From a virus, in IMG/VR virus record IMGVR_UViG_3300032893_000139, positions 1 through 40,550 of that record: a stretch of 40,550 nucleotides of DNA, one strand, 5' to 3'. Each line of letters opens with the position of its first letter. The first letter of the stretch is position 1. The notes below the pieces were generated by a model that saw nothing but the letters and a program-made list of their open reading frames with translations, was not told the origin of the DNA and ran no database searches. A program made the translations under genes and the position numbers. This document shows positions 5,707 through 28,639 of the stretch, piece by piece.

Positions 5707-6465
5707 TTAAGCTAATGATTCATATTTTGAAGAAATATATATAGAATCTCTAGATATAGATTTTCTAGTGTATTGCATTAGAGAAAAAGAAACAACCGCT
5801 TCTAAAGGAGATAAGTTGGGTAATTGTTTTGTAATCTTTATTCTTAGATTAGTAATTACCCATAAACCAAAATAATCATTAGTATTATCTCCATATGATT
5901 TTTTTGAAAGAGAGCTTCCTATCCATAAAGTTACCAATGGTGGACTTGAGGCTAAGCGTCTTCTTTCTTTTTTTCCATTAGAAATTAAATCATAAGTAGG
6001 ATATAATAAAGATCTATAAAATTCCAATCTAGCGGATACGTCAAGTTTTGTTCTAACTGGATCTGTAGAAGCATTTGTTCTAGAAGTAGGAATAGTTACT
6101 TTAAAAAAACTAGAAGCTATATCTGCTGTTGCTGTTAGAGCTGTTCCATTAGAAGGATTTAAATTTTTGTACAAATCTAAGTCTGATGTTTCAGCTGTGA
6201 CCAAAGCATCAAAAGATACGATCCTTGGACCAGAAGAAATCCACTGTAACGGGGGATCGCTTTGTCCTGGAACAGAATTAGGTGACCAATTTGCAGATTT
6301 TTCTTCGTCTATAGAAGCTGGATTTAAAAGAAAAATCCCCATATTAGTCTTATTTATTTTTCCATTAGTATCTACAGGAAATATTGCTGCTCTAAATAAG
6401 CTACCATTATTAGAAGAATCTGCGCTGGCTACTTGAATAGCTTTATTTAACTTTTTAATAGCCAT
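5707..6465 (-). CDS. CIS-tube / LysM-type tail tube cap or baseplate adaptor (Afp7-like)
   Basis: 252 residues. The N-terminal half holds ASIDEEKSANWSPNSVPGQS (about residues 50-69), then DPPLQWISSGPRIVSFDALV. The ANW-PG-SDP-Q-GP-SF pattern matches the contractile injection system tube protein family (Afp7/Pvc7) that adapts the inner tube to the baseplate hub. The C-terminal half includes PPLVTLWIG and FGLWVITNLRIKITKQLPN, also family-like. Its stop is 12 bases from the next gene, and its ATG overlaps the tape measure stop by 1 base. No separate peptidoglycan-binding domain is evident. Confidence 0.7.
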   Translation of the reverse strand: MAIKKLNKAIQVASADSSNNGSLFRAAIFPVDTNGKINKTNMGIFLLNPASIDEEKSANWSPNSVPGQSDPPLQWISSGPRIVSFDALVTAETSDLDLYKNLNPSNGTALTATADIASSFFKVTIPTSRTNASTDPVRTKLDVSARLEFYRSLLYPTYDLISNGKKERRRLASSPPLVTLWIGSSLSKKSYGDNTNDYFGLWVITNLRIKITKQLPNLSPLEAVVSFSLMQYTRKSISRDSIYISSKYESLA

Positions 6466-8093
6466 TACAAACCTCGCCTATCTCCAGGAGTTTGATTTTT
6501 ATCTTTAATATTACCAGCTATGTAAGAAAGATTATCAGAACTATCTAAAGCTTCTTTCATTATATTAAAATATTCTCTTTTTGTTATAGTTTCTCCGCCT
6601 TCTGACTCTTTAGATTTAGCTAATTTAATTGATTCTGCCATTTTATGAGCTTTAAATTCATCAAGCTTAGACATAGTGTCATTTAATCTATTAATTCTAG
6701 TAGATTCATCATCTGGAATAGAGTCCAAGGGTATTATGGCGTCTGTTTTTATTGGCTTTGATAAAATACTTTTTTCTGCTTCCTTAGTAGCTATAGTTTT
6801 TTCTAAACCTATGCCAGAAGGAGTAGTCATTAAAGGCATTCCCAAAGAAGTCTTAATTTTACTAAATAAGTTAAAAGATTCTCCAAATTTTTCGATACTT
6901 ATAAATATCTTTTTAAACCAGTTCCACATACGTTCTAAAGCTTCTACCACATCTAATATAGAATCAGCTAATTTATCTGAAATAGTATCGGCTAATGTAG
7001 ATAAAATATCTGAAAAAGATAGAGTTTTTGTTTTATATTTATCTAATAATTTAGCAAAAGCTCCCTGAGAATTGGCACTTTTTTCTGCGCTCTCATCAAC
7101 ATTATAAAAAGCTGCAGTTAATAATCCAAGAGCTACTAATAAACCCATGGGACCTATAATAGTTGCGCCTAAAGCAGCGCTTACTAATTTTGCCGTGCCT
7201 AATACGGCTAATAAAGTTCCCATTGAACCTACAGCAAAAGTTACTGCTTTTACTAATCTAAAAAAAGTTCCACCAACTTCTTTATGTGTTTCTATAAATT
7301 CCGTTGTTTTAGTTATAGCTTCTGTAAATTTTTTTATATAAGGAGCTAAAGCTGTGCCAACTAAAGTGAAAAAAGCAGTTTTAAGTAGTTGAATTTGACC
7401 AATGAATTCTTTATATGAATCTAACAAATCTTTATTATCATGTAAATGATTTCTAGTAGCAGCATTTAATAATCTCATTACTATAGCTTGTTTTTCTTGT
7501 GTACTTATTACTTGTCCTAATGCACCGCCAGCTTTATGTAATAAAGATAATTCTGCCTGAAGATGAGGATTAGTTCTAGCTATGATATTGAGCCATTCTG
7601 CGTGTGAAATTGAGCCATCTTTTAAAAATTCTATTATTTCTTTTAGCCCTTCGGAAGTTTCAGTTCCAGCAAGTTTAGCGGCAGTTCCTGCCATAGCCAG
7701 TACATTTACTATTTTTCCTTCATCTTTAATTATACCTAAAGATTTCAAAGATACCGCAGATCTCATGGCTTCAAATCTATCTATATAGGTATTAGTAGCT
7801 TTATCTAATTGATTAAAAAATTTACTTTTATCTCCAAAAAGTCTCTCAAATTGATTTGTTAATCTATCTAATGAAGCAGCTTCTCCTATAGATGAAGTAA
7901 AATTAGTAAGACCTCTTTGAAACAAAGCTACAAAGGCGGTCGTAGCAAACAAAGCCCTGTTTAGCTTTGTAATATCTGAACTTGTTTCTTTAGATTTTTT
8001 TCCAACGCCACCTAATGAATCGCCGATTTTTTTTAATTTATCGGTGGCGGCATCTATAACTTTTGCTACTATTTCTAAAGTTTTTCTTGCCAT
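6465..8093 (-). CDS. Tail tape measure protein
   Basis: 542 residues. The helical N-terminal part (KVIDAATDKLKKIGDSLGGV...) is followed by the typical tape-measure block (ASLDRLTNQFERLFGD, IARTNPHLQAELSLLHKAGG, GQVISTQEKQAIVMRLL). Two or three hydrophobic segments lie in the middle (about residues 280-335, e.g. ATIIGPMGLLVALGLLTAAF). It spans the tail lumen and sets tail length. At about 0.15 nm per residue this would suggest a tail of roughly 80 nm, shorter than T4. It starts directly after the TAA of the frameshifted chaperone, the canonical position. No lytic domain is visible. Confidence 0.9.
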   Translation of the reverse strand: MARKTLEIVAKVIDAATDKLKKIGDSLGGVGKKSKETSSDITKLNRALFATTAFVALFQRGLTNFTSSIGEAASLDRLTNQFERLFGDKSKFFNQLDKATNTYIDRFEAMRSAVSLKSLGIIKDEGKIVNVLAMAGTAAKLAGTETSEGLKEIIEFLKDGSISHAEWLNIIARTNPHLQAELSLLHKAGGALGQVISTQEKQAIVMRLLNAATRNHLHDNKDLLDSYKEFIGQIQLLKTAFFTLVGTALAPYIKKFTEAITKTTEFIETHKEVGGTFFRLVKAVTFAVGSMGTLLAVLGTAKLVSAALGATIIGPMGLLVALGLLTAAFYNVDESAEKSANSQGAFAKLLDKYKTKTLSFSDILSTLADTISDKLADSILDVVEALERMWNWFKKIFISIEKFGESFNLFSKIKTSLGMPLMTTPSGIGLEKTIATKEAEKSILSKPIKTDAIIPLDSIPDDESTRINRLNDTMSKLDEFKAHKMAESIKLAKSKESEGGETITKREYFNIMKEALDSSDNLSYIAGNIKDKNQTPGDRRGL

Positions 8094-9004
8094 TTATTTT
8101 TTAGTTTGATTATTTATATAATCTTTATATGCAGTTTTTATAGTTTTTCTCAGAAACCAGCCCATATTATCTACTTCACTTGGAGGCCATCTAAATGTTT
8201 GCCCAAAAAACACGTAGTCATCCAGGAGGTCTTGTCTGTGAGTTATATATTGGAATTCGTAGATCCCCTGGTAAGGGCTAAAAAAGATACATCATAACAA
8301 TTAAGTTTTATTGTAAAATCTTTATTGCAGCTTTCACAAGCAACCTCTATGTCAGTATCTATAGAACCTTGTAGCACAATTTCATCCATTTTTTCTTGGA
8401 TAAAAGAAAGATCTGTGGCGGACATATTTTCTAATTCTTTTTCTATATTATGTAATTTATCTCCAATTCTCTTTATAGATAAAGCTATTACTGAAGTTAC
8501 CAACGAATCCTGTTTTTTGTTATTTATTTTAATAACTTCAAATATATCTTTTAAGTATAAAGGTTTTAGTTCTACTTCTAATTTACTTTTTGGTAAAATC
8601 ACTAATTTTGGAGTAATTAAATCTTTTAGTGGTAATTCAGTAATTTTTAATTGATCTAAATTTAAACGTAAATTCTTGTTTTTATGCCCACAATTACTAC
8701 AATCTGCTTCATGATAAAATCTAGAGCCATAGGTTTTTTCTCGTATTTTTACTAGGAGTGTTTCTAAATCCCCGACTGGTAATCTATTTATAGCTTCAGA
8801 ATTTTTACCTAACCATTTAATTCCTTCTCTGGTCTGAATACTTACAATTAGGTCTTCTAGAATTTTAGGAATATGTCCCAAATTTCCTACTACTAATTCT
8901 CTATTTGCTAAATAATTCTGTTGTTTGCCTTTTAATTCTTCTATTTCAACATGATTGAAATGATCTTGTCCTTCGACAAAACCATTAGGTAGTTGAACTA
9001 ACAT
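8094..9004 (-). CDS. Frameshifted long form of tail assembly chaperone (gpGT-like)
   Basis: The product of a -1 shift at the slippery heptamer TTTTTTA (8285-8279). Codons 1-242 come from the zero frame. Translation then continues in the -1 frame as SPYQGIYEFQYITHRQDLLD, DYVFFGQTFRWPPSEVDNMG, WFLRKTIKTAYKDYINNQTKK, ending at TAA 8096-8094. This gives about 303 residues instead of 253. The added 61 residues replace only 11 (ALTRGSTNSNI). The -1 frame has no suitable ATG near its beginning, ends exactly before the tape measure ATG, and reads as a good protein (aromatic and charged, no stops). This is the classic lambda G/GT arrangement. Frameshifting is inferred; efficiency is unknown. Confidence 0.85.
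8243..9004 (-). CDS. Tail assembly chaperone / T4 gp26-like zinc-knuckle protein (short form)
   Basis: 253 residues in the zero frame. Two CxxC pairs, C102/C105 (DCSNCGHKN) and C223/C226 (CESCNKDF), can bind one zinc and frame an alpha-helical middle. This resembles T4 gp26/gp51-type baseplate chaperones and proteins coded just before tape measure genes. The last 11 codons lie beyond the slippery site and are replaced in the long form. In lambda-like systems the short form is the more abundant and binds the tape measure. It begins with ATG 9004; the Shine-Dalgarno GAGGAG-like sequence lies just upstream (AACGAGGAGAATAT). Confidence 0.75.
   Translation of the reverse strand: MLVQLPNGFVEGQDHFNHVEIEELKGKQQNYLANRELVVGNLGHIPKILEDLIVSIQTREGIKWLGKNSEAINRLPVGDLETLLVKIREKTYGSRFYHEADCSNCGHKNKNLRLNLDQLKITELPLKDLITPKLVILPKSKLEVELKPLYLKDIFEVIKINNKKQDSLVTSVIALSIKRIGDKLHNIEKELENMSATDLSFIQEKMDEIVLQGSIDTDIEVACESCNKDFTIKLNCYDVSFLALTRGSTNSNI
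8279..8285 (-). promoter_or_regulatory. -1 ribosomal frameshift slippery site T TTT TTA
   Basis: On the minus strand the zero-frame codons are TCT TTT TTA GCC. The X XXY YYZ heptamer T TTT TTA is therefore in the correct phase for simultaneous slippage. Seven bases downstream, CCAGGGG (8271-8265) can pair with CCTCCTGG (8229-8222, one bulged T), a long-loop stem. A shorter CCCT/AGGG hairpin starts 1-2 bases after the site. Either could stimulate slippage. Confidence 0.85.
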
Positions 9005-9025: not shown

Positions 9026-9556
9026 TTAGCCTCTAATTAACCGTTTTGTAACATCTGATATAGTATCTACTATAGTATTATCTTGTCCTAGTACTTTTAC
9101 TTCAAAACTTTCATATTCTAGTGTAAGTTTTTCTATACTTACTGTATCATCTCCATCTGAAGAAAAATCACTAGCTGGTTTATATTCTATAGGAAAAGCT
9201 CCATACAAAGTATAGGTTCTTACTGATCTACCTGCCCTATCTAAATGTTCTATAGTTACATCTTTTCTATAACTTACTGCAGGTTCGCTAGGACTAAGTA
9301 ATAAATTAAAATAAGATTTAGCCCACTCATTAAAACTTTTATCAGATGTAACTCCTCTAAGTAAAATTACTGGCTCATATCTAACTGAATCTATAATTTT
9401 CTTAGGAAATAAATGACTACCGCCTTCTGCGTAAGAATTTGTACTTATATTAACAGAAGGTACTTGAACAGAAGTAAATCCTAATCTAGAAAATCCATCT
9501 ATATCAACTTTCCATCTAAATTTATCTAATGGGTCTTTATTTGAACTTCTAGCCAT
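9026..9556 (-). CDS. Tail tube protein paralogue 3 (T4 gp19-like)
   Basis: 176 residues. It begins MARSSNKDPLDKFRWKVDID and contains GFTSVQVPSV, then YRKDVTIEHLDRAGRSV, TYTLYGAFPIEYKPASDFSS and SIEKLTLEYESFEV, the plan of T4 gp19-like tail tube proteins (beta-barrel with a final strand pair LTLEYE). It is the last of three adjacent homologous tube genes and precedes the tail chaperone. In injection systems with several tube paralogues, one forms the main tube and the others the baseplate-proximal layers. Which is which here cannot be told from sequence alone. Confidence 0.88.
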   Translation of the reverse strand: MARSSNKDPLDKFRWKVDIDGFSRLGFTSVQVPSVNISTNSYAEGGSHLFPKKIIDSVRYEPVILLRGVTSDKSFNEWAKSYFNLLLSPSEPAVSYRKDVTIEHLDRAGRSVRTYTLYGAFPIEYKPASDFSSDGDDTVSIEKLTLEYESFEVKVLGQDNTIVDTISDVTKRLIRG

Positions 9557-9562
9557 TTAATT

Positions 9563-10240
9563 TTACCTTGTAAAAGGTAGTTTGCCTTGTGCTAAAGCTA
9601 AATTTATGCCAGTTAACACTGCCCCTTCTAATGCGTCCTCTTCTTCTGCTAATTCTTTTGAAAATCCATCTATACCACCCTCTAACTCTAAAAACCATTC
9701 ATACGTTAAAGTCAATTCTTCTATAAGCTTTTCTTCTATATTGGCACTTAAATCATTACCGCCTTTGTAAGATACTGGAAAAGCATTAAACAACATCCAC
9801 TGTTTTATAGGATTACCTTCTCTATCTAAACTAGTAATAATTACTTCTTTTCTAAAATTTTCACTTTGAACTGGAGCAGTAGAATCTTTTGTTAATTCTT
9901 GAGCTACTCCTAAAAGAGCCATATCGTCATGAACTAATTTGTACCATTTATATAGATCTCTATTATCTGTGGCTCCTCGTTTTAGAATAACTGGTTCATA
10001 TTTAGTTAAACCAGGTATTTTACTAAAACGTTGATTATCTATATTTTCCCTATAAGAAATTTCGTTTATTGTAGCTTTTGGCAAAGTAACTTCACTAAAT
10101 CCAGCTCTACTTATAATAGAAAATTTTTTATTAATGATGCCTAAAGCATCTACTGCAGCTACAGCACTTATATCTAATGATATAACCGTAACTTTAAATC
10201 TAAATTTTTCTATAGGATCTAATGTAGCACTTCTAGCCAT
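9563..10240 (-). CDS. Tail tube protein paralogue 2 (T4 gp19-like), with insertions
   Basis: 225 residues, the longest of the three tube paralogues. It shares the start MARSATLDPIEKFRFKVTV and the core FRKEVIITSLDREGNPIKQW, MLFNAFPVSYKGGNDLSANI, IEELTLTYEWFLELE. It has extra residues near 24-40 (AVAAVDALGIINKKF) and a C-terminal tail of about 35 residues (after LELEGGIDGF). An extended tube paralogue often sits at the base or top of the tube. It follows a terminator after the first tube gene, so it may be made at lower level. Gap to paralogue 3 is 6 bases. Confidence 0.85.
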   Translation of the reverse strand: MARSATLDPIEKFRFKVTVISLDISAVAAVDALGIINKKFSIISRAGFSEVTLPKATINEISYRENIDNQRFSKIPGLTKYEPVILKRGATDNRDLYKWYKLVHDDMALLGVAQELTKDSTAPVQSENFRKEVIITSLDREGNPIKQWMLFNAFPVSYKGGNDLSANIEEKLIEELTLTYEWFLELEGGIDGFSKELAEEEDALEGAVLTGINLALAQGKLPFTR

Positions 10241-10259
10241 AAGATATTTATTATATAAA

Positions 10260-10283
10260 AGGAGGGAAAATTAATTCCCTCCT
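10260..10283 (-). terminator. Rho-independent terminator between tube genes
   Basis: AGGAGGGAA (10260-10268) pairs perfectly with TTCCCTCCT (10275-10283) over 9 base pairs with a 6-base loop. On the minus strand the stem is followed by TTTTATA. It lies just after the stop of tube paralogue 1, and would limit transcription into paralogues 2 and 3, giving the main tube and sheath higher expression. Confidence 0.75.
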
Positions 10284-10293
10284 CTTTAATTTA

Positions 10294-10869
10294 TTAAGGT
10301 AAAGAAGAACTAACAGGTCTGCTTAGAGACGTATCAGGAACTTCTTCTTTAAAATCTTCAAACCCTAAAGTTAGAGTTTCTAAAGATTTGTCTCCATCTT
10401 CTCTAGCATTTAGATCCGAGCTAGCAGCAAAGTGTACAGGAAACGCATTAAATAACGTCCACTGCCTAGCTGTGTTGCCTTCTCTATCTAGGACCTTAAT
10501 AGTAACATCTTTTCTGTAACTATTTGATGCTGCATCTGGCGACCTTGCTGATAGAGCTTGTCTACCAACTTGGCCGGATGTAGGGTTATGAACTGCACTA
10601 GCCCATTTATAAAACTCATCATTCGGATCTTGAATTATAAGACCTCTATTTAAAGTAATATCTTCCATGCTAGTAAGTCCAGCAAATAGCTGATTAATAT
10701 CAGGATCAATTCCTTCTCTGTACGTCCCTTTAGTAGTAGTTCTTTTTGGTGATTGAACGTCATGGAATCCTAACCTAATTAAAGCAGTACCTTCGGAATC
10801 TCCTTCAGAAGTCCAAGAAACTTGAAATCTGAATTTTTCCAAAGGATCAACTGATGCGCTTCTTGCCAT
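10294..10869 (-). CDS. Tail tube protein paralogue 1, likely main tube (T4 gp19-like)
   Basis: 191 residues. It begins MARSASVDPLEKFRFQVSWT and shows LIRLGFHDVQSPKRTTTKG, YRKDVTIKVLDREGNTARQW, TLFNAFPVHFAASSDLNARE and SLETLTLGFEDFKEE, the gp19 tube pattern shared with the next two genes. It directly follows the sheath gene (18-base gap) and is followed by a strong terminator, the usual arrangement for the abundant main tube subunit. That it is the main one is inferred from position. Confidence 0.88.
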   Translation of the reverse strand: MARSASVDPLEKFRFQVSWTSEGDSEGTALIRLGFHDVQSPKRTTTKGTYREGIDPDINQLFAGLTSMEDITLNRGLIIQDPNDEFYKWASAVHNPTSGQVGRQALSARSPDAASNSYRKDVTIKVLDREGNTARQWTLFNAFPVHFAASSDLNAREDGDKSLETLTLGFEDFKEEVPDTSLSRPVSSSLP

Positions 10870-12352: not shown

Positions 12353-13810
12353 TTATGGATCTTCAATAATTACAGTATTTGTATTTAAATCTTCGATGGA
12401 CTCTGTTATTTGAGTAATAACGCTATTGTTTTGAACATCTTCAAGTTTATCAACAAATATTTGAACCCAAAACGTAAATTCATGTACCCAGTATTGAGCC
12501 GCCTCAACATCCTTAGTTACATGGTCTACGAAATGAAACATCAATAATTCAAAATCTGCATTGCTTATGATTTTACTTGTTTTTGCCGTGGTAAAAGTGT
12601 CCGGTACAACATCCTGTAATTTTAGTTGATTGGTAGATATTTTTTCTACCACTATAGACTCAAAAGGTCTATCCGATTTACTATCAGGACTAATAGTTGG
12701 AAATAAGTCGTCTATTATAAACACAGTATCATTTAAATTAAAACCACTATTATCTGACACATTTATTATCTGACTGCCACCAGATGTGACATCTTGAGTA
12801 AGAGTCTGTTCGAAACTTAGAGCGCTTCTAACTATTACAGGTAAAAATGTCCTTGGAGGATTAAATTCTTCCCATACTCTATTCAAAATATCTATGTGAG
12901 TATCTCGTTCCTTTGAGTCAATTCTTATTAAATAATAAGCGTCTATAGGAATTGGCGGGTCAATACTTCCTATATTGTCTGCCCCAGCCAAAGTATCTCC
13001 ATTTGCATTTATTATACTAATAGGTTTAGTTTGATCTAAAATCAAAAATCTAACTAAACTTAAGTCTGCGGCTTGGAATACATTTCCAACACGTATTATC
13101 TTTCCATTAGCTAATAAGCTAGGAGTTCCTACTCCGCCTAAAGTTATAGTATTCGTATTTATATTTATAGCAGTTATAGGAAAACTTGCTATAAGCGAAT
13201 CTTGGAAATCGTCCCCAACTTTAACAGTATGTAAATCTATTGGGGAGGTAAAAACTAAATTTCTTAAATTGCTATCAAATAATGCTGTTGGTAAATTTTC
13301 AACTAAAGTATTACTAACAAAAATTGAATGATCGCCAGAATTACTTATAGTAACAGAACTAATCTTATATGTTCCTATATTATTACCAGCTAATAATCTT
13401 AATAAATTACCAGGTTGTACTTTAGCTATTTGAAATACTCCAGTTTTAAATTCATTACCTGGAGCTAAAATAGTACCATCTGAGCTAGAAGTTATTATAT
13501 CAAAAGCTCTTTGCGAAGTTTGAACTGGAGTTTCTATCCATCTCCCGTACTGAGGTACTACTCTTCCAGTAAATCTATCTTCTCTAGTTTTAAGTAATCG
13601 TATAAAAAAATGTGGATATTGTATATTATTAGTATCAGCGCTGCTATCATAAAAATTGGGTTCAATAGGTAAACTAACTACTTCTCCAGTAAAAGGATCG
13701 AAAGTATCCTGTAAAACTTCTCTACTTAAAGTTCTATTATCATTAAAAGTTATGCGACGAACTTCCCGAGCCAAACTTTCCTCTACATCTCTAAATATCT
13801 GCCTAGACAT
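12353..13810 (-). CDS. Virion structural protein upstream of sheath (neck or tail-completion candidate)
   Basis: About 485 residues. I prefer ATG 13810 (MSRQIFRDVEESL...) to the TTG at 13816, because AAGG lies a sensible distance upstream and the upstream gene ends at 13817. It begins with a helix rich in charge, then beta-rich repeats (GNLLRLLAGNNIGTYKISSV, ITLGGVGTPSLLANGKIIRV) suggestive of small barrels. It ends with a helical FHFVDHVTKDVEAAQYWVHE stretch. I do not recognise a named family. Position between the 353-residue gene and the sheath suggests a neck, tail-terminator or collar role. The upstream frame is separated by 6 bases. Confidence 0.6.
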   Translation of the reverse strand: MSRQIFRDVEESLAREVRRITFNDNRTLSREVLQDTFDPFTGEVVSLPIEPNFYDSSADTNNIQYPHFFIRLLKTREDRFTGRVVPQYGRWIETPVQTSQRAFDIITSSSDGTILAPGNEFKTGVFQIAKVQPGNLLRLLAGNNIGTYKISSVTISNSGDHSIFVSNTLVENLPTALFDSNLRNLVFTSPIDLHTVKVGDDFQDSLIASFPITAININTNTITLGGVGTPSLLANGKIIRVGNVFQAADLSLVRFLILDQTKPISIINANGDTLAGADNIGSIDPPIPIDAYYLIRIDSKERDTHIDILNRVWEEFNPPRTFLPVIVRSALSFEQTLTQDVTSGGSQIINVSDNSGFNLNDTVFIIDDLFPTISPDSKSDRPFESIVVEKISTNQLKLQDVVPDTFTTAKTSKIISNADFELLMFHFVDHVTKDVEAAQYWVHEFTFWVQIFVDKLEDVQNNSVITQITESIEDLNTNTVIIEDP

Positions 13811-13816
13811 AATCAA

Positions 13817-14878
13817 TTACCTTATTGTTAGCATGCCTTCTTCTTGGAACTTTTCTATTACTTTAGAAGCTAAAGTTACTAACTCACTAAACCACATATC
13901 TTGGTTAGTTATTAGCCATATATTCACATTTCTGTCTAGTTCATCTAAAAATTTTGTATTATTTATATCTTCATAATCTGATATTAATGAGTATATAACT
14001 GAGTCTTTTTTTACTTCTTTTAATATACGTAAATTATTTATGAGAGCTAATATATTGTTGTAAGCTTCTATACTAGGGGTTAAATTCTGTCTATCTTTTA
14101 GGTTTGTAATCTGTTGATCCACTTTAACTAGGCTACTTGTGGCTGAGTTAGCTTTTAGAACATTTAAAGCTTCGTCATATTGGCTTTCTTTTATTTTTTC
14201 TATAATATCAGTTATATCTGATCCAGATCTTTTTAATTCTTGTACTCCGGCTTTTGCTAAAGACCATTCAGAATATCTACCTAATCCGTATCTTTGATAT
14301 TTGGATCTATCTGGAGAATTTTTATATGAATCATAAGTTTTTCTAGATTTATCTGTAACTCCTCGATCTCTAGAACAAACTATTTTTACGTATGGTTTGG
14401 GATCAAAATTCTTTAAAAAATAATATCTAGGTTTATTAAAAGAAGTATCAACAAATATTGCGTTTCTAAAAATATTAACTGCTCTAGCGTAGCTTTGTTC
14501 CATATCTCCGTCTACGCCTTCGGGTATACGCAGCCTAACCATTCCACTATTTATAAAAAATACATTTGATTGTAATGAATTGGTATAATCTTCATTCTTA
14601 TTTATTTTTTCTACGTCTACTCCAAACACAAATCTTAATATATCTGCGTCAGATTTAGGCATATCAATCTTATGATTATCTGCTGTATCTGATTTTTTGC
14701 TGCTATCTTCTCTTATTTGTTCGTTTATTACGTATTTTAAATTTCTTTTTAGTTCACTAATAGAACTAGATAAAGATGAGTCCAGGCCTTTGTTTATTAC
14801 TTTATCTTTTATTTCAGCTTTTAATTTAAGAAAATCTCCTACTTCTTTTAAATTAACGTCTAATTGTACTTTAAACAT
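13817..14878 (-). CDS. Hypothetical structural protein of neck region
   Basis: 353 residues of unrecognised family. The first 60 residues are helical and charged, the middle has SNVFFINSGMVRLRIPEGVD and a basic block (SRDRGVTDKSRKTYDSYKNS), then a GLGRYSEWSLAKAGVQELKR segment and a helical C-terminus (ILALINNLRILKEVKKDSVI). The middle EWSLAKAGVQELKR is reminiscent of gene products that contact the tail tube, but this is weak. It overlaps the HNH gene stop by 1 base, so the HNH gene was inserted between it and the connector-like gene. Confidence 0.55.
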   Translation of the reverse strand: MFKVQLDVNLKEVGDFLKLKAEIKDKVINKGLDSSLSSSISELKRNLKYVINEQIREDSSKKSDTADNHKIDMPKSDADILRFVFGVDVEKINKNEDYTNSLQSNVFFINSGMVRLRIPEGVDGDMEQSYARAVNIFRNAIFVDTSFNKPRYYFLKNFDPKPYVKIVCSRDRGVTDKSRKTYDSYKNSPDRSKYQRYGLGRYSEWSLAKAGVQELKRSGSDITDIIEKIKESQYDEALNVLKANSATSSLVKVDQQITNLKDRQNLTPSIEAYNNILALINNLRILKEVKKDSVIYSLISDYEDINNTKFLDELDRNVNIWLITNQDMWFSELVTLASKVIEKFQEEGMLTIR

Positions 14879-15450
14879 TATCTGCCGTTTACTTTATGCC
14901 AATCTTTATGGCAAGGCTCGCACAAAGTTAAACCATTATCTAGGTTATAAAAGAAATTATTATTTAGGTCGTTTTCTGTTAAATTTGCTACTAATTTATT
15001 ATTAGTTTCACAATATTTTGTTATAAGCTTCTTTAGAGTATTTATATGGTGAGCGTGTAATTTTTCTGTAGAATTACATTTAGTGCATTTGTTATTATCT
15101 CTATTTAATACCGAATAACGCCAATCCCAATATGATTTTAAATCTCTAACTCTATCATAAACTGACTTATAACCGCCTTTCCAACTGTGATGGTCAGGTC
15201 CAAATCCTTGAGTTTTGGAATAATGATTACTATACTCTCCTGGCTTTCTTTTTGGTAAATTTTTTATAATTCTAAGTATAGGAGTTTTAGAACAATTGAA
15301 ATTTTTAGCTATTTTATTACAAGATAAGCCGGATTTATATAACTCTATTATTTCTTTTTCTTGATCTAGAGTAAATAACTTATTAAGTTCTTGTAGATAT
15401 CTTACTTGTTTCTGCAAAGCTAATTTTTGCTTTTCACTCTTATATTCCAT
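14878..15450 (-). CDS. HNH homing endonuclease with N-terminal helix-turn-helix
   Basis: The open frame begins at GTG 15537, but I choose ATG 15450 (MEYKSEKQKLALQKQ..., 190 residues) because a host-type promoter (TTGACA and TACAAT) sits between the two positions. From that start: coiled region, helix-turn-helix (ELYKSGLSCNKIAKNFNCSK, residues 36-55), basic link, and an HNH nuclease domain with zinc ligands C122/C125 (CTKC), catalytic His in LHAHHIN (132-137), Asn172, C177/C180 and H181/H185 (LCEPCHKDWH). The family cuts phage alleles lacking the gene. It is free-standing, inserted between connector and neck genes. The Shine-Dalgarno is weak (AGG 12 bases before ATG). Confidence 0.88.
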   Translation of the reverse strand: MEYKSEKQKLALQKQVRYLQELNKLFTLDQEKEIIELYKSGLSCNKIAKNFNCSKTPILRIIKNLPKRKPGEYSNHYSKTQGFGPDHHSWKGGYKSVYDRVRDLKSYWDWRYSVLNRDNNKCTKCNSTEKLHAHHINTLKKLITKYCETNNKLVANLTENDLNNNFFYNLDNGLTLCEPCHKDWHKVNGR

Positions 15451-15472
15451 AATGCACTTTAACCTATAAGTC

Positions 15473-15500
15473 ATTGTAACATATATAGAATTTTTGTCAA
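15473..15500 (-). promoter_or_regulatory. Sigma-70-type promoter for the HNH gene
   Basis: On the minus strand TTGACA (15500-15495), a 16-base spacer, and TACAAT (15478-15473). Transcription would begin around 15466, some 16 bases before ATG 15450. It is close to a consensus host promoter and lies in the 80-base gap after the connector-like gene, so the HNH gene can be expressed independently of the structural operon. Confidence 0.7.
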
Positions 15501-15529
15501 TACTTAATTTTATCAATAAAATCAGATAG

Positions 15530-16285
15530 TTAACCACGCCCCAACGGCAAACCCTGTAAAACTGATTCTCTTTTCTCTTGAGCTAGTATATTCATCCATT
15601 CATTACGCCAATCTAATAGGTTTTGTTCACTTATTGAACTACCATCTTCTCCACGGGCGGCAAGTAATATACTCCAAATAGTATAATATATACAAAATAA
15701 TCTATAATTGGCACTCATTCCTCTAGATTTACTTAAATTAAGTTCTTCTCTTAATTTTACAGTAGCATCTTGTAAGTGAGAGTCTATTAATTGATTTCTA
15801 GCAGTTAAATCTTGTCTGGTTGAAGGAGGTAAATAATCATCTATATTGAATTTCTTTTTTCTAACATCATCTACTGTAGCATAAGTAGGAGTCTGCATTC
15901 CAACCATTCCGGCAGAACCTACTATCATAAAAAATTCATCACCAAAATTAGTTAATAGTCCAGCTATGTAACCGCTGTAACTAATTATATATTCATCTAC
16001 AGGAACAGTAGTTATAGGAATATCCCAAATAAATTGATATTCAAATTGTTGTCCTGGAACCAAGGTGCCGTTTAAAGTAGTTACGGGTTCTGGTACAGGG
16101 GCATCTCCAGATAAAAATCTAGGCTTATATATAGTAGCTGTAGGAATAGTAGCAAAATCTACAGTAGTAGGAACTCCATCACTAGTAAAAATAGTTTTAA
16201 AAGTGCCGGTAGTTCCTCTAACAAATATATATCCGTCTTTTGGTTCTGTTCTAGTTCCTGCTACAGGGGATACTACACCAGCCAT
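15530..16285 (-). CDS. Head-tail connector/adaptor-like protein
   Basis: 251 residues. The first 130 residues look like an immunoglobulin-like or beta-sandwich domain (KDGYIFVRGTTGTFKTIFTS, DEYIISYSGYIAGLLTNFGD). The C-terminal part is helical and resembles head-tail adaptors (gp6/gp15 class): TYATVDDVRKKKFNIDDYLP, LTARNQLIDSHLQDATVKLR, then EELNLSKSRGMSANYRLFCI. The -ATVDDVR- plus helical bundle is what ring-forming connector proteins show. The proposed fusion of a beta domain to an adaptor is an inference. The gene lies 1 base after the holin-like gene and upstream of the HNH insertion. Confidence 0.6.
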   Translation of the reverse strand: MAGVVSPVAGTRTEPKDGYIFVRGTTGTFKTIFTSDGVPTTVDFATIPTATIYKPRFLSGDAPVPEPVTTLNGTLVPGQQFEYQFIWDIPITTVPVDEYIISYSGYIAGLLTNFGDEFFMIVGSAGMVGMQTPTYATVDDVRKKKFNIDDYLPPSTRQDLTARNQLIDSHLQDATVKLREELNLSKSRGMSANYRLFCIYYTIWSILLAARGEDGSSISEQNLLDWRNEWMNILAQEKRESVLQGLPLGRG

Positions 16286-16286
16286 G

Positions 16287-16532
16287 TTAACTCCTAAACA
16301 TAAATCTTATTATAAATTCACTAACTAAACTTAGTAATCCTGCTGCTATTCCAACTTTTACCAACATGGGAACAAAATTATTTTCTAATCTAGTTATTCG
16401 TTTTTCTAAATCTTCTACGTCTTCTTTTGAAGGTAAAGCCTTAACATCCTCTCTAACTTCTTTTAACAGATCCATCAATAGCTTTAGTTTTGTTTCTACG
16501 CTTACTAACCTTTCGCTTATCTTGTGGTCCAT
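16287..16532 (-). CDS. Small coiled-coil membrane protein, XhlA/holin-like
   Basis: 81 residues: an N-terminal heptad-like helix (ERLVSVETKLKLLMDLLKEV; EDVEDLEKRITRLENNFVP) and a C-terminal membrane segment (LVKVGIAAGLLSLVSEFIIR, about 57-76) followed by basic residues. This is the layout of haemolysin XhlA proteins and related phage holin partners. Its ATG has an upstream AAGGA at good spacing, and its first 80 bases overlap the previous small gene in another frame. Next to a putative cysteine hydrolase, it could act in lysis; this is inferred. Confidence 0.6.
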   Translation of the reverse strand: MDHKISERLVSVETKLKLLMDLLKEVREDVKALPSKEDVEDLEKRITRLENNFVPMLVKVGIAAGLLSLVSEFIIRFMFRS

Positions 16533-16662
16533 TGTTAAAATCCTTTTCTACTAACCAATTACCAAATATCTCTGTTGCTTCATCAGAGATTTCTTTAGCT
16601 ACTTCACAAGCTTTATTTAATTTAGAATTTATGCAAGTTTCTTTCTGTTTATAGTTTGCCAT
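16453..16662 (-). CDS. Small charged hypothetical protein overlapping the holin-like gene
   Basis: 69 residues (MANYKQKETCINSKLNKACE...), strongly basic at the C-terminus (DKRKVSKRRNKTKAI). No membrane segment. The ATG at 16662 has a good Shine-Dalgarno (GAGG, 6 bases upstream). The last 80 bases lie under the start of the holin-like gene in a different frame. It is real or at least translatable on start-site evidence. No function is recognised. Confidence 0.5.
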   Translation of the reverse strand: MANYKQKETCINSKLNKACEVAKEISDEATEIFGNWLVEKDFNNGPQDKRKVSKRRNKTKAIDGSVKRS

Positions 16663-16673
16663 AAATCCTCAAA

Positions 16674-17216
16674 TTAAAGTCTATAGGAAGCTTTTAACAC
16701 AAAAGTTTCTGGATGAGCTTTAAAAATATCTTGTAGATCTTGGGGGGCTATTGAACCGTTTCCATATCCTTGTAATACATCGTCTAGACCGCAAGCTTTC
16801 AAATATGTTACGCATAACTGACTGCAGATAAGTCCACTGTTAGCTTCCCAATTATCTTGGGATTTAATATCTTTACCAAAAATCAAACAAATTTTTCGCC
16901 ATATAAAATAAGCATATTCAAGAAACCCATAGGACACTTCAAGATAGTTTATAACATTTTTTATAGCTTCATCTTTGATTTCTTGATCTATATCTATAAA
17001 CCATACTTGCAAACCTTCAGCCATATTATTTAGATAACCTGTGTCATATCTAGACATATCTATTCCACCTTCAACTGCTTCTATACACATAGGAATACCT
17101 AGAATTTCTGGCATTGTAACAAAACTATGGCTAAATCTAGAATTGGTAAACCACATAATACATTTTGAAAGCCAATTATCTTTACAACCTGCTAAAGCTA
17201 TGTCGCCATAATCCAT
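16674..17216 (-). CDS. Permuted papain-like (NlpC/P60-superfamily, YiiX-type) cysteine hydrolase
   Basis: 180 residues, with no signal peptide. The permuted NlpC/P60 order is visible: early His30 in SRFSHSFVTM, an acidic Glu46 in CIEAVEGG, the YGFLEYAYFIW helix, and the likely nucleophile Cys131 in SGLICSQLCVTYLKA. In YiiX/LRAT-like proteins the His precedes the Cys and the fold hydrolyses amide or ester bonds. In a phage, next to holin-like genes, peptidoglycan cleavage is plausible but not proven; it might instead be a virion-associated enzyme. It lies between the fibre and holin-like genes. Confidence 0.65.
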   Translation of the reverse strand: MDYGDIALAGCKDNWLSKCIMWFTNSRFSHSFVTMPEILGIPMCIEAVEGGIDMSRYDTGYLNNMAEGLQVWFIDIDQEIKDEAIKNVINYLEVSYGFLEYAYFIWRKICLIFGKDIKSQDNWEANSGLICSQLCVTYLKACGLDDVLQGYGNGSIAPQDLQDIFKAHPETFVLKASYRL

Positions 17217-17244
17217 ACATCAATCTCCTATAGATAAAAGATTG

Positions 17245-17907
17245 TTATTGACCTACTGCCCATTCAAAATTAACGTAAAATTTACCAGTTATTAGGCCGC
17301 CGCCCTTTTTAGCTACCACTTTTATATAAAATCCTGATGGAGCAAAACCATAGTATCCAACAGTTTCTGCTTTTAAAGTGCCTCTAACAGGAGGTAAATA
17401 CCAACCTTGATTTGCTGTATCTGCTGCATCATCTGTATAACTTCCTACTATACTATCTACACCGCCGCCAGCTATATTATCATGATCAACAAACCATGCC
17501 CCAAGTACCTTGTCTCCCGGAGTAGGCACATCAAAAAAAGCTTCAGCAGAAGCAATATATCTTCCATCAGAACCAGGGGTACCCGGTATTTTTACTAATA
17601 CTGTAGCAGTGCTGTCTTCTTGTACATCAGCTTCTGCACAAAAAAGTTTTAAAGTTTTATCCTTAGCTTCAAATTGAGTTTGTACTTGTGTTATCTGATT
17701 TTCTGGCAGTGGTTGACCATTATGATTGGTAACTATTGTATCTAAAGTAGATTTATCATTATCAGATAAAGTGTCTTTAAAAAAAATAGATAGAGCAGAA
17801 TCTAGTAAATTTATGTGATCTAAAGCTATTATAATAGAACTTGTTTGTATTTCTTGAGTTAATCTATCTATAGCACAAGGAGTTTTTGTATAATCATATT
17901 CTGTCAT
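17245..17907 (-). CDS. Hypothetical virion or fibre-associated protein
   Basis: 220 residues. The N-terminal 40 residues are helical (YTKTPCAIDRLTQEIQTSSI), then an LSDNDKSTLDTIVTNHNGQP segment. The rest is beta-rich and glycine-rich (GSDGRYIASAEAFFDVPTPG, GWYLPPVRGTLKAETVGYYG, VVAKKGGGLITGKFYVNFEW). It starts immediately after the beta-helix spike gene stop (1-base gap) and may be a fibre tip, chaperone or accessory. I recognise no family. Confidence 0.5.
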   Translation of the reverse strand: MTEYDYTKTPCAIDRLTQEIQTSSIIIALDHINLLDSALSIFFKDTLSDNDKSTLDTIVTNHNGQPLPENQITQVQTQFEAKDKTLKLFCAEADVQEDSTATVLVKIPGTPGSDGRYIASAEAFFDVPTPGDKVLGAWFVDHDNIAGGGVDSIVGSYTDDAADTANQGWYLPPVRGTLKAETVGYYGFAPSGFYIKVVAKKGGGLITGKFYVNFEWAVGQ

Positions 17908-17908
17908 A

Positions 17909-19648
17909 CTAAGCCCCTAATCTTATAAGTAACATACTTCTTTGTGACACAGTCATACTATTACCATTAGGGTTTATATATATACTGCATGCCGTAGAGC
18001 CATTAAATGATTTGATAGTTTGTGTACTATTTTGAAAAATGTGGCCACCAGACGTCGAAAGATTTGATCTTTTTGAATCTGTTATAGGCGAAGCTCCTGA
18101 ATATATAGTACAATCCAATTGTTGCCCAGAACCGCTTCCAGTATTTTGCGCATTATACCAAATACTATAGGTACCGGATTGTGGAGTAACGGACATGCCA
18201 GTTATTAATGTATCAACGCTGGCCGAACTAGAAAAATCGGTATTAGAGATTACATTATAACTAATTAAACCTCCAGCTATGCTTAAAATAACTTGATTGT
18301 ATAGCCAAGAACCAGCCGCAGTTCCATTTGTTTGTAACATTAGTTGCGTATAGGATGTTTGAGATAGAACTATTAAAGTGTTATTACCGCCATCTTTAAG
18401 AGTTATTGGCTGTGAACTTTGATTATATATGTCTACTTTGTAACCTATTCTTATATTAGTTGCATCTGGCAAAACTATTGATTGACCAGTAGACGAACCT
18501 GTTATTAAGTATGTAGTAGTATCTTGATATAGCAGTGAATGTGAATTTCCTGTAAATGGAGTACTAAGAGAAGTAACTTGGTCTATCCTTCTTTTGGGAA
18601 TCGACGCTCCAGATATAGTTAAATCTCCTGATGATGGATCATGATAATTAGGATAAAAAGTAGTAGAATTATTATTAACTTTACCTATGTTTGCTGAACC
18701 GGAAAAAGTACCTGTAGTTCCTGTATGATCAATTTGTAAATCTACAGTATTATTAAACATTCCCATAGCGGCGGCATTTATGTTAGGTGCTGCGCCAGAA
18801 TTAATTGTATAAATACCTTTCGCAAAACCTTCTATGTGGGCTCCAGTAATCTCTAAATCCCCTCCAGTATCTGCTTGAAAACATGATCCAGAAGTTGTTG
18901 CTCCACTTAATTGGTATTCTCCTCCATCTACATCCATTTCGCAACTGGCTCCAGAAGTGTAACCTATATATGTTGGATAAGATGCCGCAAAATCTGTAGC
19001 GATCACGGATACTAGTCTAAGTGTACCTCTACCCGTACCAGTAGTTTTTGTAATTAAAAAACCTTTATTAAATTGATCTCCGCTTCCTATGGTACAATCA
19101 TGCACATACATTAAAGTATTAAAATTACCGACTGTAACAGTGACTGCAGTATCTGTAGAACCAAATCTGCAATTTAGAACATTAAATAACGTATTGTTGG
19201 CAGAAGATCCAGGATAATTTATTAAAGACTTTCCAGAACCAGAAACTCCATTTAAATATAAATTGGCTATAAATATATTATCTGCAGCAGTTAATAAATC
19301 TTGATTCGCATTAGCAGCTGCTATTTGGACCAATCTTGGACCGCCTTGTCCTACAACATGTATATAAGATTTTAATTGAACCGGATTATTTTCTGTATAA
19401 ATACCTGGTGCTATTTTAATAACATAACGTTTTGTCGATGAAGCATCAGTTATAGAAGCCAATGCTGCAGATAAAGTAGAAAAATCTTTATGTCCGGGAT
19501 TCTGTTTTACCCATACTATCTGTTGTATATTTACTTCATTATCAATTTCATCAACAACGCTTTGTACATCAGTAGAAGTTAAACCATTAATAGTAGCATC
19601 AAAAGGCACGGATCTAGCTACTGGTGATATGTCTATTTTTCTTTGCAT
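17909..19648 (-). CDS. Beta-helix tail spike or fibre (pectin-lyase-like)
   Basis: 579 residues. The N-terminus (SVPFDATINGLTSTDVQSVV) is a common phage fibre anchor. Residues about 50-130 begin a pectin-lyase-like right-handed helix (GHKDFSTLSAALASITDASS, then YVIKIAPGIYTENNPVQLKS, IHVVGQGGPRLVQIAAANAN). Repeated strands with N/G/S-rich turns run to about 330 (LYLNGVSGSGKSLINYPGSS, CTIGSGDQFNKGFLITKTTG). The C-terminal part is a fibre-like beta domain (ITLKDGGNNTLIVLSQTSYT) with a small sandwich (SGTYSIWYNAQNTGSGSGQQ). It is likely to bind or degrade a surface polysaccharide; no catalytic residue set can be assigned. It overlaps the upstream gene by 1 base. Confidence 0.75.
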   Translation of the reverse strand: MQRKIDISPVARSVPFDATINGLTSTDVQSVVDEIDNEVNIQQIVWVKQNPGHKDFSTLSAALASITDASSTKRYVIKIAPGIYTENNPVQLKSYIHVVGQGGPRLVQIAAANANQDLLTAADNIFIANLYLNGVSGSGKSLINYPGSSANNTLFNVLNCRFGSTDTAVTVTVGNFNTLMYVHDCTIGSGDQFNKGFLITKTTGTGRGTLRLVSVIATDFAASYPTYIGYTSGASCEMDVDGGEYQLSGATTSGSCFQADTGGDLEITGAHIEGFAKGIYTINSGAAPNINAAAMGMFNNTVDLQIDHTGTTGTFSGSANIGKVNNNSTTFYPNYHDPSSGDLTISGASIPKRRIDQVTSLSTPFTGNSHSLLYQDTTTYLITGSSTGQSIVLPDATNIRIGYKVDIYNQSSQPITLKDGGNNTLIVLSQTSYTQLMLQTNGTAAGSWLYNQVILSIAGGLISYNVISNTDFSSSASVDTLITGMSVTPQSGTYSIWYNAQNTGSGSGQQLDCTIYSGASPITDSKRSNLSTSGGHIFQNSTQTIKSFNGSTACSIYINPNGNSMTVSQRSMLLIRLGA

Positions 19649-20739
19649 TAAGTAGACTCCGTAATTCTAGCAGTCTTACTATTAGCACTAGCTACTACCC
19701 ATACTTGAAAAGTACTATCTGGATCTACTGCAAAGGAAATTGACTGATTTTTGTATAAAGGAGTACCATTAGAAGTTGTAACTCCATTATTATAACCCCA
19801 ATACATATCATCTAATGCTGTTATGGTTAAGGATTTTCTATTACTTAACCTACTTCCTCCAACTTTAGCTTCATATGCTGTGTTCCCTGTCGTTAATGTT
19901 AAAGCTCCGTATACTCCGCCATTTCTTAGACCATCAGAAACTTTTAAATCACTATTTGTTGTAACTAATGCTGTGTCTGTTCCATCAGTAATTTTTATAG
20001 GCCAAGCATTTGATGCAGTATTTGCTGTGCCTTGATTTGCAGTAACAGTACTAGTGCTGGCTAATGGAGAAATAATCAATCTACCACTAGAATCTAATTG
20101 TATTGCTGATTGTTGAGTATTAGTAAGAGTAGGAAGAGCAGTATTAAACTGTCCTCCAATTAATTGCGATTTTGTGGCAGCAGTTCCAGGAGTAACTGGA
20201 CCATCAGCTGTATCTGTAGTTAACCAGGGAGTTGTATTGGCTGTGTTTCCAGGTTGAACAGTCCAAGTCCCTGATTGAGTTGATAGTATGTTTGAATCAT
20301 TTGATACGGTGACACGAGGTATGCCGGAACCGGACGCTCCTGTTCCAGTAACTACTGCTGATCCGCCAAACTGAGATATGTTTTCTACCCATGGTGATGT
20401 GCTTTGTACTACGGAAACTGAATCTGTACCTGAAGCAAGCGTCCAAGTTCTACCAGTCGTCCAAGTACCGCTTTGAGAAACGCTCCAAGGTGGTGTTCCT
20501 TGTTGAACTGTCCACGTTCCCGATTGAGTAACGGGCTGAGCTGTAGTTCCTGTAGGATCTACACGAACAGGATTAGTTGCCGTTCCTATTTCTGTACCAG
20601 CATTATTACGTAAATTTATGTGTAAAGCTTTTCCAGAAGTAACTAATGCCCCGTTTCCAGATTCATCGGAAGATTGTATTTCTACTATTGTGTTATCTAA
20701 TGCTGAAGTAGAATTTGAATCTTGAACACTAGCCGACAT
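19648..20739 (-). CDS. Repeat-containing virion appendage protein
   Basis: 363 residues, serine-, threonine- and glycine-rich. It has imperfect tandem repeats (VTQSGTWTVQQGTPPWSVSQ, TQSGTWTVQPGNTANTTPWL), a beta-repeat pattern seen in phage appendages. The C-terminus (KSLTITALDDMYWGYNNGVT) has a small beta domain also seen in head-fibre proteins. No enzyme motif. It precedes the spike gene and may connect the spike or form a head fibre; this is inferred. Confidence 0.6.
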   Translation of the reverse strand: MSASVQDSNSTSALDNTIVEIQSSDESGNGALVTSGKALHINLRNNAGTEIGTATNPVRVDPTGTTAQPVTQSGTWTVQQGTPPWSVSQSGTWTTGRTWTLASGTDSVSVVQSTSPWVENISQFGGSAVVTGTGASGSGIPRVTVSNDSNILSTQSGTWTVQPGNTANTTPWLTTDTADGPVTPGTAATKSQLIGGQFNTALPTLTNTQQSAIQLDSSGRLIISPLASTSTVTANQGTANTASNAWPIKITDGTDTALVTTNSDLKVSDGLRNGGVYGALTLTTGNTAYEAKVGGSRLSNRKSLTITALDDMYWGYNNGVTTSNGTPLYKNQSISFAVDPDSTFQVWVVASANSKTARITEST

Positions 20740-26737: not shown

Positions 26738-28639
26738 TTACTTTATTGTCTTCTGGGTTCTTTTTTCTGAGGCTCTAGGGTCTCCGTTTTTTTCTTTTTG
26801 TTTTGAACTATCTTCTGCATGTTTTGCTTTATTGTCTATTTTTGGTTTGCTTACCTTTAGAGATTCAGACTCTCCTAAATCTCCACCCCTTGTAGATTTA
26901 TTATCAGTAGAAATAGCAACATCTGATCCTAATACGGACAATATCTGAGCTTTTTCTACCTCAACTTTTGCATCCTCAATTGCTTGTTCCGTCTTGTCTT
27001 TTCTTCGTTGTTTAATAAGCTTATTAATATCCTCATGACTTAAGTGAGGATATAACTTTTTATATGTACTTCTGTCTCCTGAATCCAATAATTTATTTTC
27101 CATTGCTATAGTTTCTATATTTGTTTTTGGATCTACCGGAAATTTAGGTTGTACATAAGTTACATCTAATCTTGCGTTATCTGAGAATTTTCTGTCACCA
27201 GTTTTTGAATTATGTGCGTTCCATAGTTGTTTAATAATTAAAAATAACTGCTGCTCTCTTTCTTTAAATAATTTAGCTCTTCGTATATTTTGCTCAATCA
27301 CACCTATCTTATCCATTAATAGAGCAAATCCAGAACTAGGTAAACTATCTTTGTATTTTGGTCTAAGTCCATGGTTAATTCTAACCATATCCGTTATACC
27401 TTCTATAACTTTTATTAAACCTGTAATATCTGCTGATGGATGAGCAAACTTAAAGTCTCCTTTTTCTCCAACAGCTATAGCAGTATCTGGACCTATACTG
27501 GTTCCTAGTGCCGCAGCATCAGCATTACCATCTCTAAATATACCTAAACCAGCATCAAACGTTCTAAATTGTCCTCCGGCAGCAAAACCACTGATGCCTC
27601 CAATGCCACCAAATTTAGACTGCGCTTGTCCACCTTTTAATATATTATAATCATCTACAGGTCGACCTTGTCTCAATGAAGTTGGTCTTTCTACTCCAGA
27701 AACAACAGGGACTCCAAACGATTGAAACTTAGCTATATGATTTAAATCTGTTATTCGCATATTAAGAGCATGGTTAGCGTAAATTAAAGGCTCATTAATA
27801 GGCAAAAAATAATAATGTGCAGGATCTTGATTAAAAAACGGTATAGCTGGAATTACTCCATAAGGGTTTTTAGTTTCATAGTATTGGCCATTATCACTTT
27901 CTATTCTGTGTGATGTGGGAGACCAATATATTCTATTTATTTTTCCAATTTCCCCAGCATTTCCAACATGTTGTCTAGCATCTATAGACGCCATACCTAA
28001 ATCTGATGGATTAGGTAATTTTCCTGTTATTGATCCACCAATCATTTGTGAACCACTAGCGGAAGCAAATCCTCCAAACTTAGTTCCAAAACCAATTAAT
28101 AATTCTGTGATATAATAAGGCGAAGCTCCATGCTTCATATCATATACGCCACCATGAAGCATGTCTAACTGAACTTTTCCGCCTTGAGTTTCTTTTACTA
28201 GCTGCCCAGTATTTGGATCAACAAAGCTAACTTTAACTAGTATGGTTCCTAATAACTTAACCCATCTGTCAAGTTTTTCCATAAAAGTTTGGTATCGAGA
28301 TTCTCTCATAATCTCTTCCCATAACTTTTGATCTTCTTTTAAGTTTTTCCCTTCTTCATCTACTACTTGATATATAGGATCTTCTCTATACAAAATAGAG
28401 GTTTCATCAATAATCTCTTTAGTGAGGTTAAGAGGTAGTATTTGCTGTTTCTCAGGATTACGAAACTGCCTAACCAAATCTAACCAAACAAATTCGTCCT
28501 GTCGTCCTTCATAAAAAGCTAAGGCTATCTCGGTGATCCATTGGCGGTAATAAATATCTTCGTAAAGATATACTCCTATTGAGGATAACCCGCCTAAACG
28601 ACTGATTGGGTGGTTGCTTATGCCCAAATTGAACGCCAC
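26738..28639 (-). CDS. Portal protein
   Basis: 633 residues, the large size of myovirus portals. The N-terminal wing has YYRQWITEIALAFYEGRQDE, then NLTKEIIDETSILYREDPIY, which is typical of phage portals. The middle has IYWSPTSHRIESDNG with YGVIPAIPFFNQ, and GFALLMDKIGVIEQNIRRAK resembles the stem/clip helices (DK-G--E-N----R). The C-terminus is helical, charged and disordered (KHAEDSSKQKEKNGDPRASE). It forms the 12-fold DNA entry ring. It sits upstream of the scaffold and capsid genes, and the LAGLIDADG gene lies just upstream (12-base gap). Confidence 0.9.
   Translation of the reverse strand: MAFNLGISNHPISRLGGLSSIGVYLYEDIYYRQWITEIALAFYEGRQDEFVWLDLVRQFRNPEKQQILPLNLTKEIIDETSILYREDPIYQVVDEEGKNLKEDQKLWEEIMRESRYQTFMEKLDRWVKLLGTILVKVSFVDPNTGQLVKETQGGKVQLDMLHGGVYDMKHGASPYYITELLIGFGTKFGGFASASGSQMIGGSITGKLPNPSDLGMASIDARQHVGNAGEIGKINRIYWSPTSHRIESDNGQYYETKNPYGVIPAIPFFNQDPAHYYFLPINEPLIYANHALNMRITDLNHIAKFQSFGVPVVSGVERPTSLRQGRPVDDYNILKGGQAQSKFGGIGGISGFAAGGQFRTFDAGLGIFRDGNADAAALGTSIGPDTAIAVGEKGDFKFAHPSADITGLIKVIEGITDMVRINHGLRPKYKDSLPSSGFALLMDKIGVIEQNIRRAKLFKEREQQLFLIIKQLWNAHNSKTGDRKFSDNARLDVTYVQPKFPVDPKTNIETIAMENKLLDSGDRSTYKKLYPHLSHEDINKLIKQRRKDKTEQAIEDAKVEVEKAQILSVLGSDVAISTDNKSTRGGDLGESESLKVSKPKIDNKAKHAEDSSKQKEKNGDPRASEKRTQKTIK

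Follow-up and report, generated by a model that had tools for sequence, protein, structure and literature searches.

The window analyzed here is a 40,550-base virus record from IMG/VR with a G+C content of 33.6%. Its minus-strand gene at 9004-8243 encodes a tail assembly chaperone of the gp26 type (PF12322) and belongs to a T4-like phage with a contractile tail. Conservation among relatives of a T TTT TTA-type heptamer near the 3' end of the gene, of an open -1 frame and of a downstream stem makes it very probable that a programmed -1 frameshift at this heptamer yields a short and a long form of the chaperone. In a profile search, the short product scored 47.3 bits against PF12322 (T4_baseplate; cut-off, 24.5) and also matched phrog_150. 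With Foldseek, its AlphaFold model (pLDDT 90) retrieved T4-like baseplate hub assembly proteins (best E 6.8e-15); proteins of this kind also head the 60 BFVD matches of the model at E <= 0.001, which include gp26 of Aeromonas phage 25. Cysteines C102, C105, C223 and C226, forming two CxxC pairs (residues 102-105 and 223-226), are unchanged in all 20 viral sequences compared (see below). The gene order, tube - chaperone - tape measure (Table 1), is the usual one, and the tape-measure protein is the expected client of the chaperone. The adjoining tail tube gene is the nearest of three gp19-type paralogues arranged in tandem (176, 225 and 191 amino acids; 9026-10869). Three tail tube paralogues are also found in locus L002, and tail tubes are triplicated in the Vandenendeviridae (PMC12846349). 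Elsewhere in the structural region (12353-20739 and 26738-28639), several large ORFs (487, 353, 579, 363 and 633 amino acids) have no PHROG match at E <= 0.001.

Table 1. Features of the chaperone region (window coordinates)
Feature	Position	Strand	Remarks
Tail tube protein gene, gp19-type, directly upstream of chaperone	9026..9556	-	PF06841, 89.7 bits
Short chaperone (TAC-N), gp26-type, 253 aa, two CxxC pairs	8243..9004	-	PF12322, phrog_150, AlphaFold/Foldseek
-1 open frame, stop to stop	8094..8291	-	pN/pS of 0.35 in the -1 frame only
Putative slippery heptamer T TTT TTA	8279..8285	-	In phase; T TTT TT(C/A/G/T) in 26/26 related sequences
Predicted 61-residue C-terminal extension (TAC-C)	8279-8097	-	Three-helix model, pLDDT 84.6; stop TAA 8096-8094
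Predicted stem, 5' arm CCAGGGG	8265..8271	-	7 nt past heptamer; reaches 8262 beyond one mismatch
Predicted stem, 3' arm CCTCCTGG	8222..8229	-	Pairing on to 8231 beyond one mismatch; biased Leu codons
Tape-measure protein gene	6465..8093	-	phrog_991 and phrog_28, tail length tape measure

The chaperone gene ends with the sequence ...TCT TTT TTA GCC CTT ACC AGG GGA... ATA TAA. The heptamer (TTTTTTA, 8285-8279) is thus read TCT TTT TTA in the zero frame, whose stop (8245-8243) lies 13 codons on, counted from where TTT TTA begins. The nearest upstream stop in the -1 frame is 9 nt before the heptamer; after the heptamer, this frame reads SPYQGIYEFQYITHRQDLLDDYVFFGQTFRWPPSEVDNMGWFLRKTIKTAYKDYINNQTKK and ends in a TAA (8096-8094) abutting the tape-measure ATG at 8093. 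The initial annotation had placed the heptamer in the phase required for a -1 shift and had followed it with a 61-codon frame running to the TAA that touches the tape-measure ATG; the coordinates proved right to the base. Because in-phase XXXYYYZ heptamers are common in the window's 37 genes (roughly 10,000 codons contain 93, including 12 of the TTTTTT type), the heptamer alone is weak evidence. Only at T TTT TTA 8285-8279, among the 93, does the -1 frame continue for more than 100 nt past the stop of its own gene. The frequency of such heptamers speaks for coincidence, a widespread AT-rich motif happening to overlap an open -1 frame, and a sequencing error might also have split a single gene; both ideas are answered by the relatives.

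A search of viral contigs with the chaperone sequence by itself found no relatives; these were reached through the tail tube gene and then by alignments. The scans gave 28 loci, 19 of them distinct and with intact gene ends, making 20 sequences with the window; addition of six T4-like phages sampled from a phage collection brought the set to 26. No relatives were found among 84,980 prokaryote genomes, and the -1 peptide alone had no tblastn match among phages. The 19 relatives, whose chaperones are 32-59% identical to that of the window, all have an in-phase T TTT TTC (T TTT TTG in L049) and an open -1 frame. Across the 20 viral sequences, the -1 frame is uninterrupted and spans 59-68 codons wherever the contig is long enough (L033 ends 25 codons in). 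The distance from the heptamer to the zero-frame stop ranges from 4 to 13 codons, and that from the upstream -1 stop to the heptamer from 3 to 39 nt; since both stops shift among the relatives, the heptamer stands out as the fixed point. The base preceding TTT TTN is a T in 26 of 26 sequences, against 13.6 expected from the codon use of each gene, an expectation that overstates independence because the sequences are related. This first T of the slippery sequence falls in codons for six amino acids (S, D, G, T, L and A).

In the stretch past the zero-frame stop, pN/pS among five relatives is 0.35 for the -1 frame versus 1.23 and 1.27 for the other two frames, which contain many stops, bearing out the earlier impression that the added part reads like a protein. 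In the extension, W43, R46 and K47 are the same in every relative, several further positions are nearly invariant, and a segment FF(R/L/S)P(Y/F)QG is conserved in the -1 frame. In none of the 26 sequences is the heptamer missing or are the two frames fused. Recurrence of heptamer and frame throughout this set, which comprises independent contigs as well as finished phage genomes, together with purifying selection on the extension, refutes coincidence or sequencing error as an explanation; its probability is practically nil.

The same data bear on whether the -1 frame could be a separate small gene with a start of its own, expressed by re-initiation or coupling. A small ORF is indeed annotated in the P-SSM2, S-RIM8, ValKK3, LG08 and BRock records, and P-SSM2 has an ATG just past the zero-frame stop. 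In the window, however, the sole ATG of the -1 frame is found beyond the middle of the extension (M of EVDNMGW), and its GTG (in DDYVFFG) lacks an obvious ribosome-binding site. Moreover, the conserved FF(R/L/S)P(Y/F)QG segment precedes any such start, and an independent gene would not account for a slippery T that persists regardless of the residue encoded. A separate gene is therefore quite improbable. The view, already taken in the initial annotation, that the frame lacks its own start agrees with residues conserved from the heptamer onward and with protein-level selection in the -1 frame.

That annotation had also noted a stem seven bases downstream of the heptamer, which was located at this position, past the 7-nt spacer GCCCTTA, and found to be conserved. 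In 14 members of the window's clade, aligned gap-free over 96 bases from the heptamer, columns 15-24 pair with columns 55-64, the pairing starting after a 7-nt spacer. Columns 18 and 61 switch together, being A-U in nine members and G-C in five, with no exception among the 14; about four changes are implied on a tree that is poorly resolved. The codons concerned (Gln CAA/CAG and Leu TTG/CTG) change silently in the -1 frame and could have changed independently. This is the one base pair that covaries on both sides of the stem. In the 3' arm, which lies past the zero-frame stop, a Leu-Leu pair is encoded as CTY-YTG in 13 of 14 members where codon use predicts 0.41; as the sequences are related, the nominal probability overstates the case. 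By predicted energy, the stem region of the window does not fold more stably than shuffled versions of it (z = 0.13), so that the case for the predicted stem rests on the comparison, which supports it well, the energy doing so weakly. The stem of the window's clade is absent from L016-L018 (the loci also numbered L045-L047), which form a more distant clade. A different hairpin, GTCGGT/ACCGAC, is found in L016 (4708-4760, equal to L045 3708-3760), 5 nt after the heptamer, and the stimulator may therefore have been replaced.

The stem is relevant to another alternative, namely that the polymerase slips on the T6 run and produces mRNAs one base longer or shorter. In its favor, all sequences have at least six T in the run. 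In bacteria, however, slippage during transcription generally takes a run of some nine bases, and in the AT-rich relatives the run has not grown longer but is mostly capped by C. Nor would slippage during transcription account for a conserved RNA stem at ribosomal spacing. We consider it less probable still than a separate gene.

Sequence comparison shows the frame, the heptamer, protein-level selection on the extension and the stem; that ribosomes slip, how efficiently they do so and what each form does are what we infer. Under programmed -1 frameshifting, most ribosomes would reach the zero-frame stop and release the 253-amino acid short form (TAC-N). A minority would pause at the stem some 7 nt downstream of the heptamer, allowing the two tRNAs on TTT TTA to slip back one base together, and translation in the -1 frame would then give a 303-amino acid long form (TAC-NC) ending in a small three-helix domain. 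The junction peptide would be LNCYDVSFLSPYQGIYEFQYITHR if slipping occurs after both codons have been read, or the FF variant ...SFFSPYQ... if it occurs before TTA is read. As in lambda G/GT, the tape-measure protein would be coated by many short and few long molecules, and the C-terminal domain of the latter would recruit the tail tube protein.

The six T4-like phages belong to several groups: P-SSM2, S-RIM8, C48C1, ValKK3, LG08 and RL38J1 include cyanophage-type Kyanoviridae, Vibrio Schizotequatrovirus and the Rhizobium phages LG08 and RL38J1. In all six, T TTT TT(C/T/G) is found 2-4 codons before the end of the gp26-type gene, after which some 60 codons of -1 ORF lead on toward the tape measure. 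These phages, outside the T-even group, share with the window a PF12322/gp26-type TAC-N with an in-phase T TTT TTN near its end and a -1 ORF, again some 60 codons long, up to the tape-measure gene. They differ in that their zero-frame stop follows the slip codons by 2-4 codons rather than 13, and in that their heptamer ends mostly in C rather than A; the window's clade, the group among these in which a downstream stem was looked for, has one that is conserved, and its -1 domain is diverged. The initial annotation had considered the union of a gp26-like chaperone with a G/GT-style shift less usual. This does not hold: with both present in six of six sampled phages from several groups, and with precedent in the literature, T4-like phages that do not belong to T4's own group combine, as a rule, a gp26-type chaperone with -1 slippage. 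Its other proposal, that short and long G/GT-like forms are made from a gp26-like protein with two CxxC pairs, is strongly supported by the conserved heptamer, frame and stem.

The -1 part is annotated in these phages as a separate 'gp51' or as a hypothetical protein. In the L064, L066, L067 and L068 records, the name 'gp51 / baseplate hub assembly catalyst' is given to the -1 part only. Such labeling of the -1 part alone hides the fused long form. Compared by hhalign, the -1 parts of the T4-like phages match the C-terminal region of T4 gp51 (probability 97.5, E 8e-12; none of 100 shuffled profiles scored as high). T4 gp26 and gp51 both match PF12322 over roughly their first 200 residues. T4 therefore uses two separate genes for what these phages obtain through a frameshift: its gp26 and gp51 share the PF12322 domain with the window's chaperone, gp51 continues into an additional C-terminal region whose homologue is the -1 part of the T4-like relatives, and the short and long forms come from two genes without frameshifting, where the window has one gene and a shift. 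The extension of the window's clade resembles the T4-like TAC-C domain in layout; against the known T4-like TAC-C profile it scored a weak 14.6, a value matched by one in 100 shuffles, and this profile similarity is only suggestive. An hhalign alignment of the whole long form with gp51 was meaningless and was discarded, and the window's C-terminal part by itself scored no higher than shuffles against gp51. A fold search with the model of the -1 domain gave no significant match, its weak ones including named tail chaperones; a search of solved structures returned none.

Frameshifting is reportedly conserved in several T4-like groups, T4 itself using separate genes 26 and 51 (work of Vladimirov, Gautam and Davidson); the PF12322 matches, the layout in six phages and the gp51 profile comparison reproduce this picture independently. 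The lambda slippery site is G GGA AAG, different from that of the window. Lambda gpG/gpGT nevertheless resembles the window in having a short chaperone and a longer, frameshifted one, encoded immediately before the tape-measure gene, with the -1 slip close to where the first frame ends (PMC5009743). Lambda is a siphovirus, and the comparison is one of arrangement. Atkins et al. (2016) describe G-T frameshifting as widely conserved in long-tailed phages, T4 excepted (PMC5009743). PMC12846349 cites Vladimirov, Gautam and Davidson 2022 (Virology 566:9-15) in connection with polyT -1 signals in TAC-N genes of T4-like phages. Pseudomonas phage Adele and the Vandenendeviridae, a virus family different from that of the window and compared by arrangement, likewise combine a myovirus TAC with a conserved polyT -1 site (GTTTTT), an uninterrupted -1 frame and three tail tube paralogues (PMC12846349).

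A further variant was noticed in the Streptomyces phages BRock, pSt2308 and LuckySocke (L008 4100-4428, L009 4100-4446 and L022 4100-4449), in which a gp26-type chaperone is followed by a TAC-C-like frame. This second frame is +1 (equivalently -2), overlaps the chaperone by 26 nt and carries no frameshift annotation. It contains a TAC-C-like motif, W-S-L-x-E-[IL]-[KR]-K-[LM]-T-x-R-E-R; a site ATC CTG TTT CRS GAA CTC TRA is conserved, and there is no T TTT TTN heptamer. It is conceivable, though we lean slightly against it, that the gp26/PF12322 family has repeatedly changed how its long form is made, most groups relying on tandem -1 slippage at T TTT TTN (accompanied by a covarying stem in the window's clade), Streptomyces phages of the BRock group on a shift of +1 or -2, and T4 on two separate genes.

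The arrangement described here is already known in T4-like phages, and the general picture is unchanged. New are the clade itself, its conserved stem and the Streptomyces relatives with a +1 (or -2) second frame. The T4-like frameshifted chaperone is thereby extended to an uncultured clade of contractile phages, and the 20 sequences, with the stem conserved in 14, provide a comparative resource for -1 slippage on T TTT TTN. Automated annotation misses the second half of such genes or mislabels it ('gp51', 'hypothetical protein'). The more interesting loose end is the BRock group, where the TAC-C-like motif is kept in a +1 (or -2) frame: if the mode of expression has indeed changed repeatedly, the long form would be essential and the recoding mechanism exchangeable.
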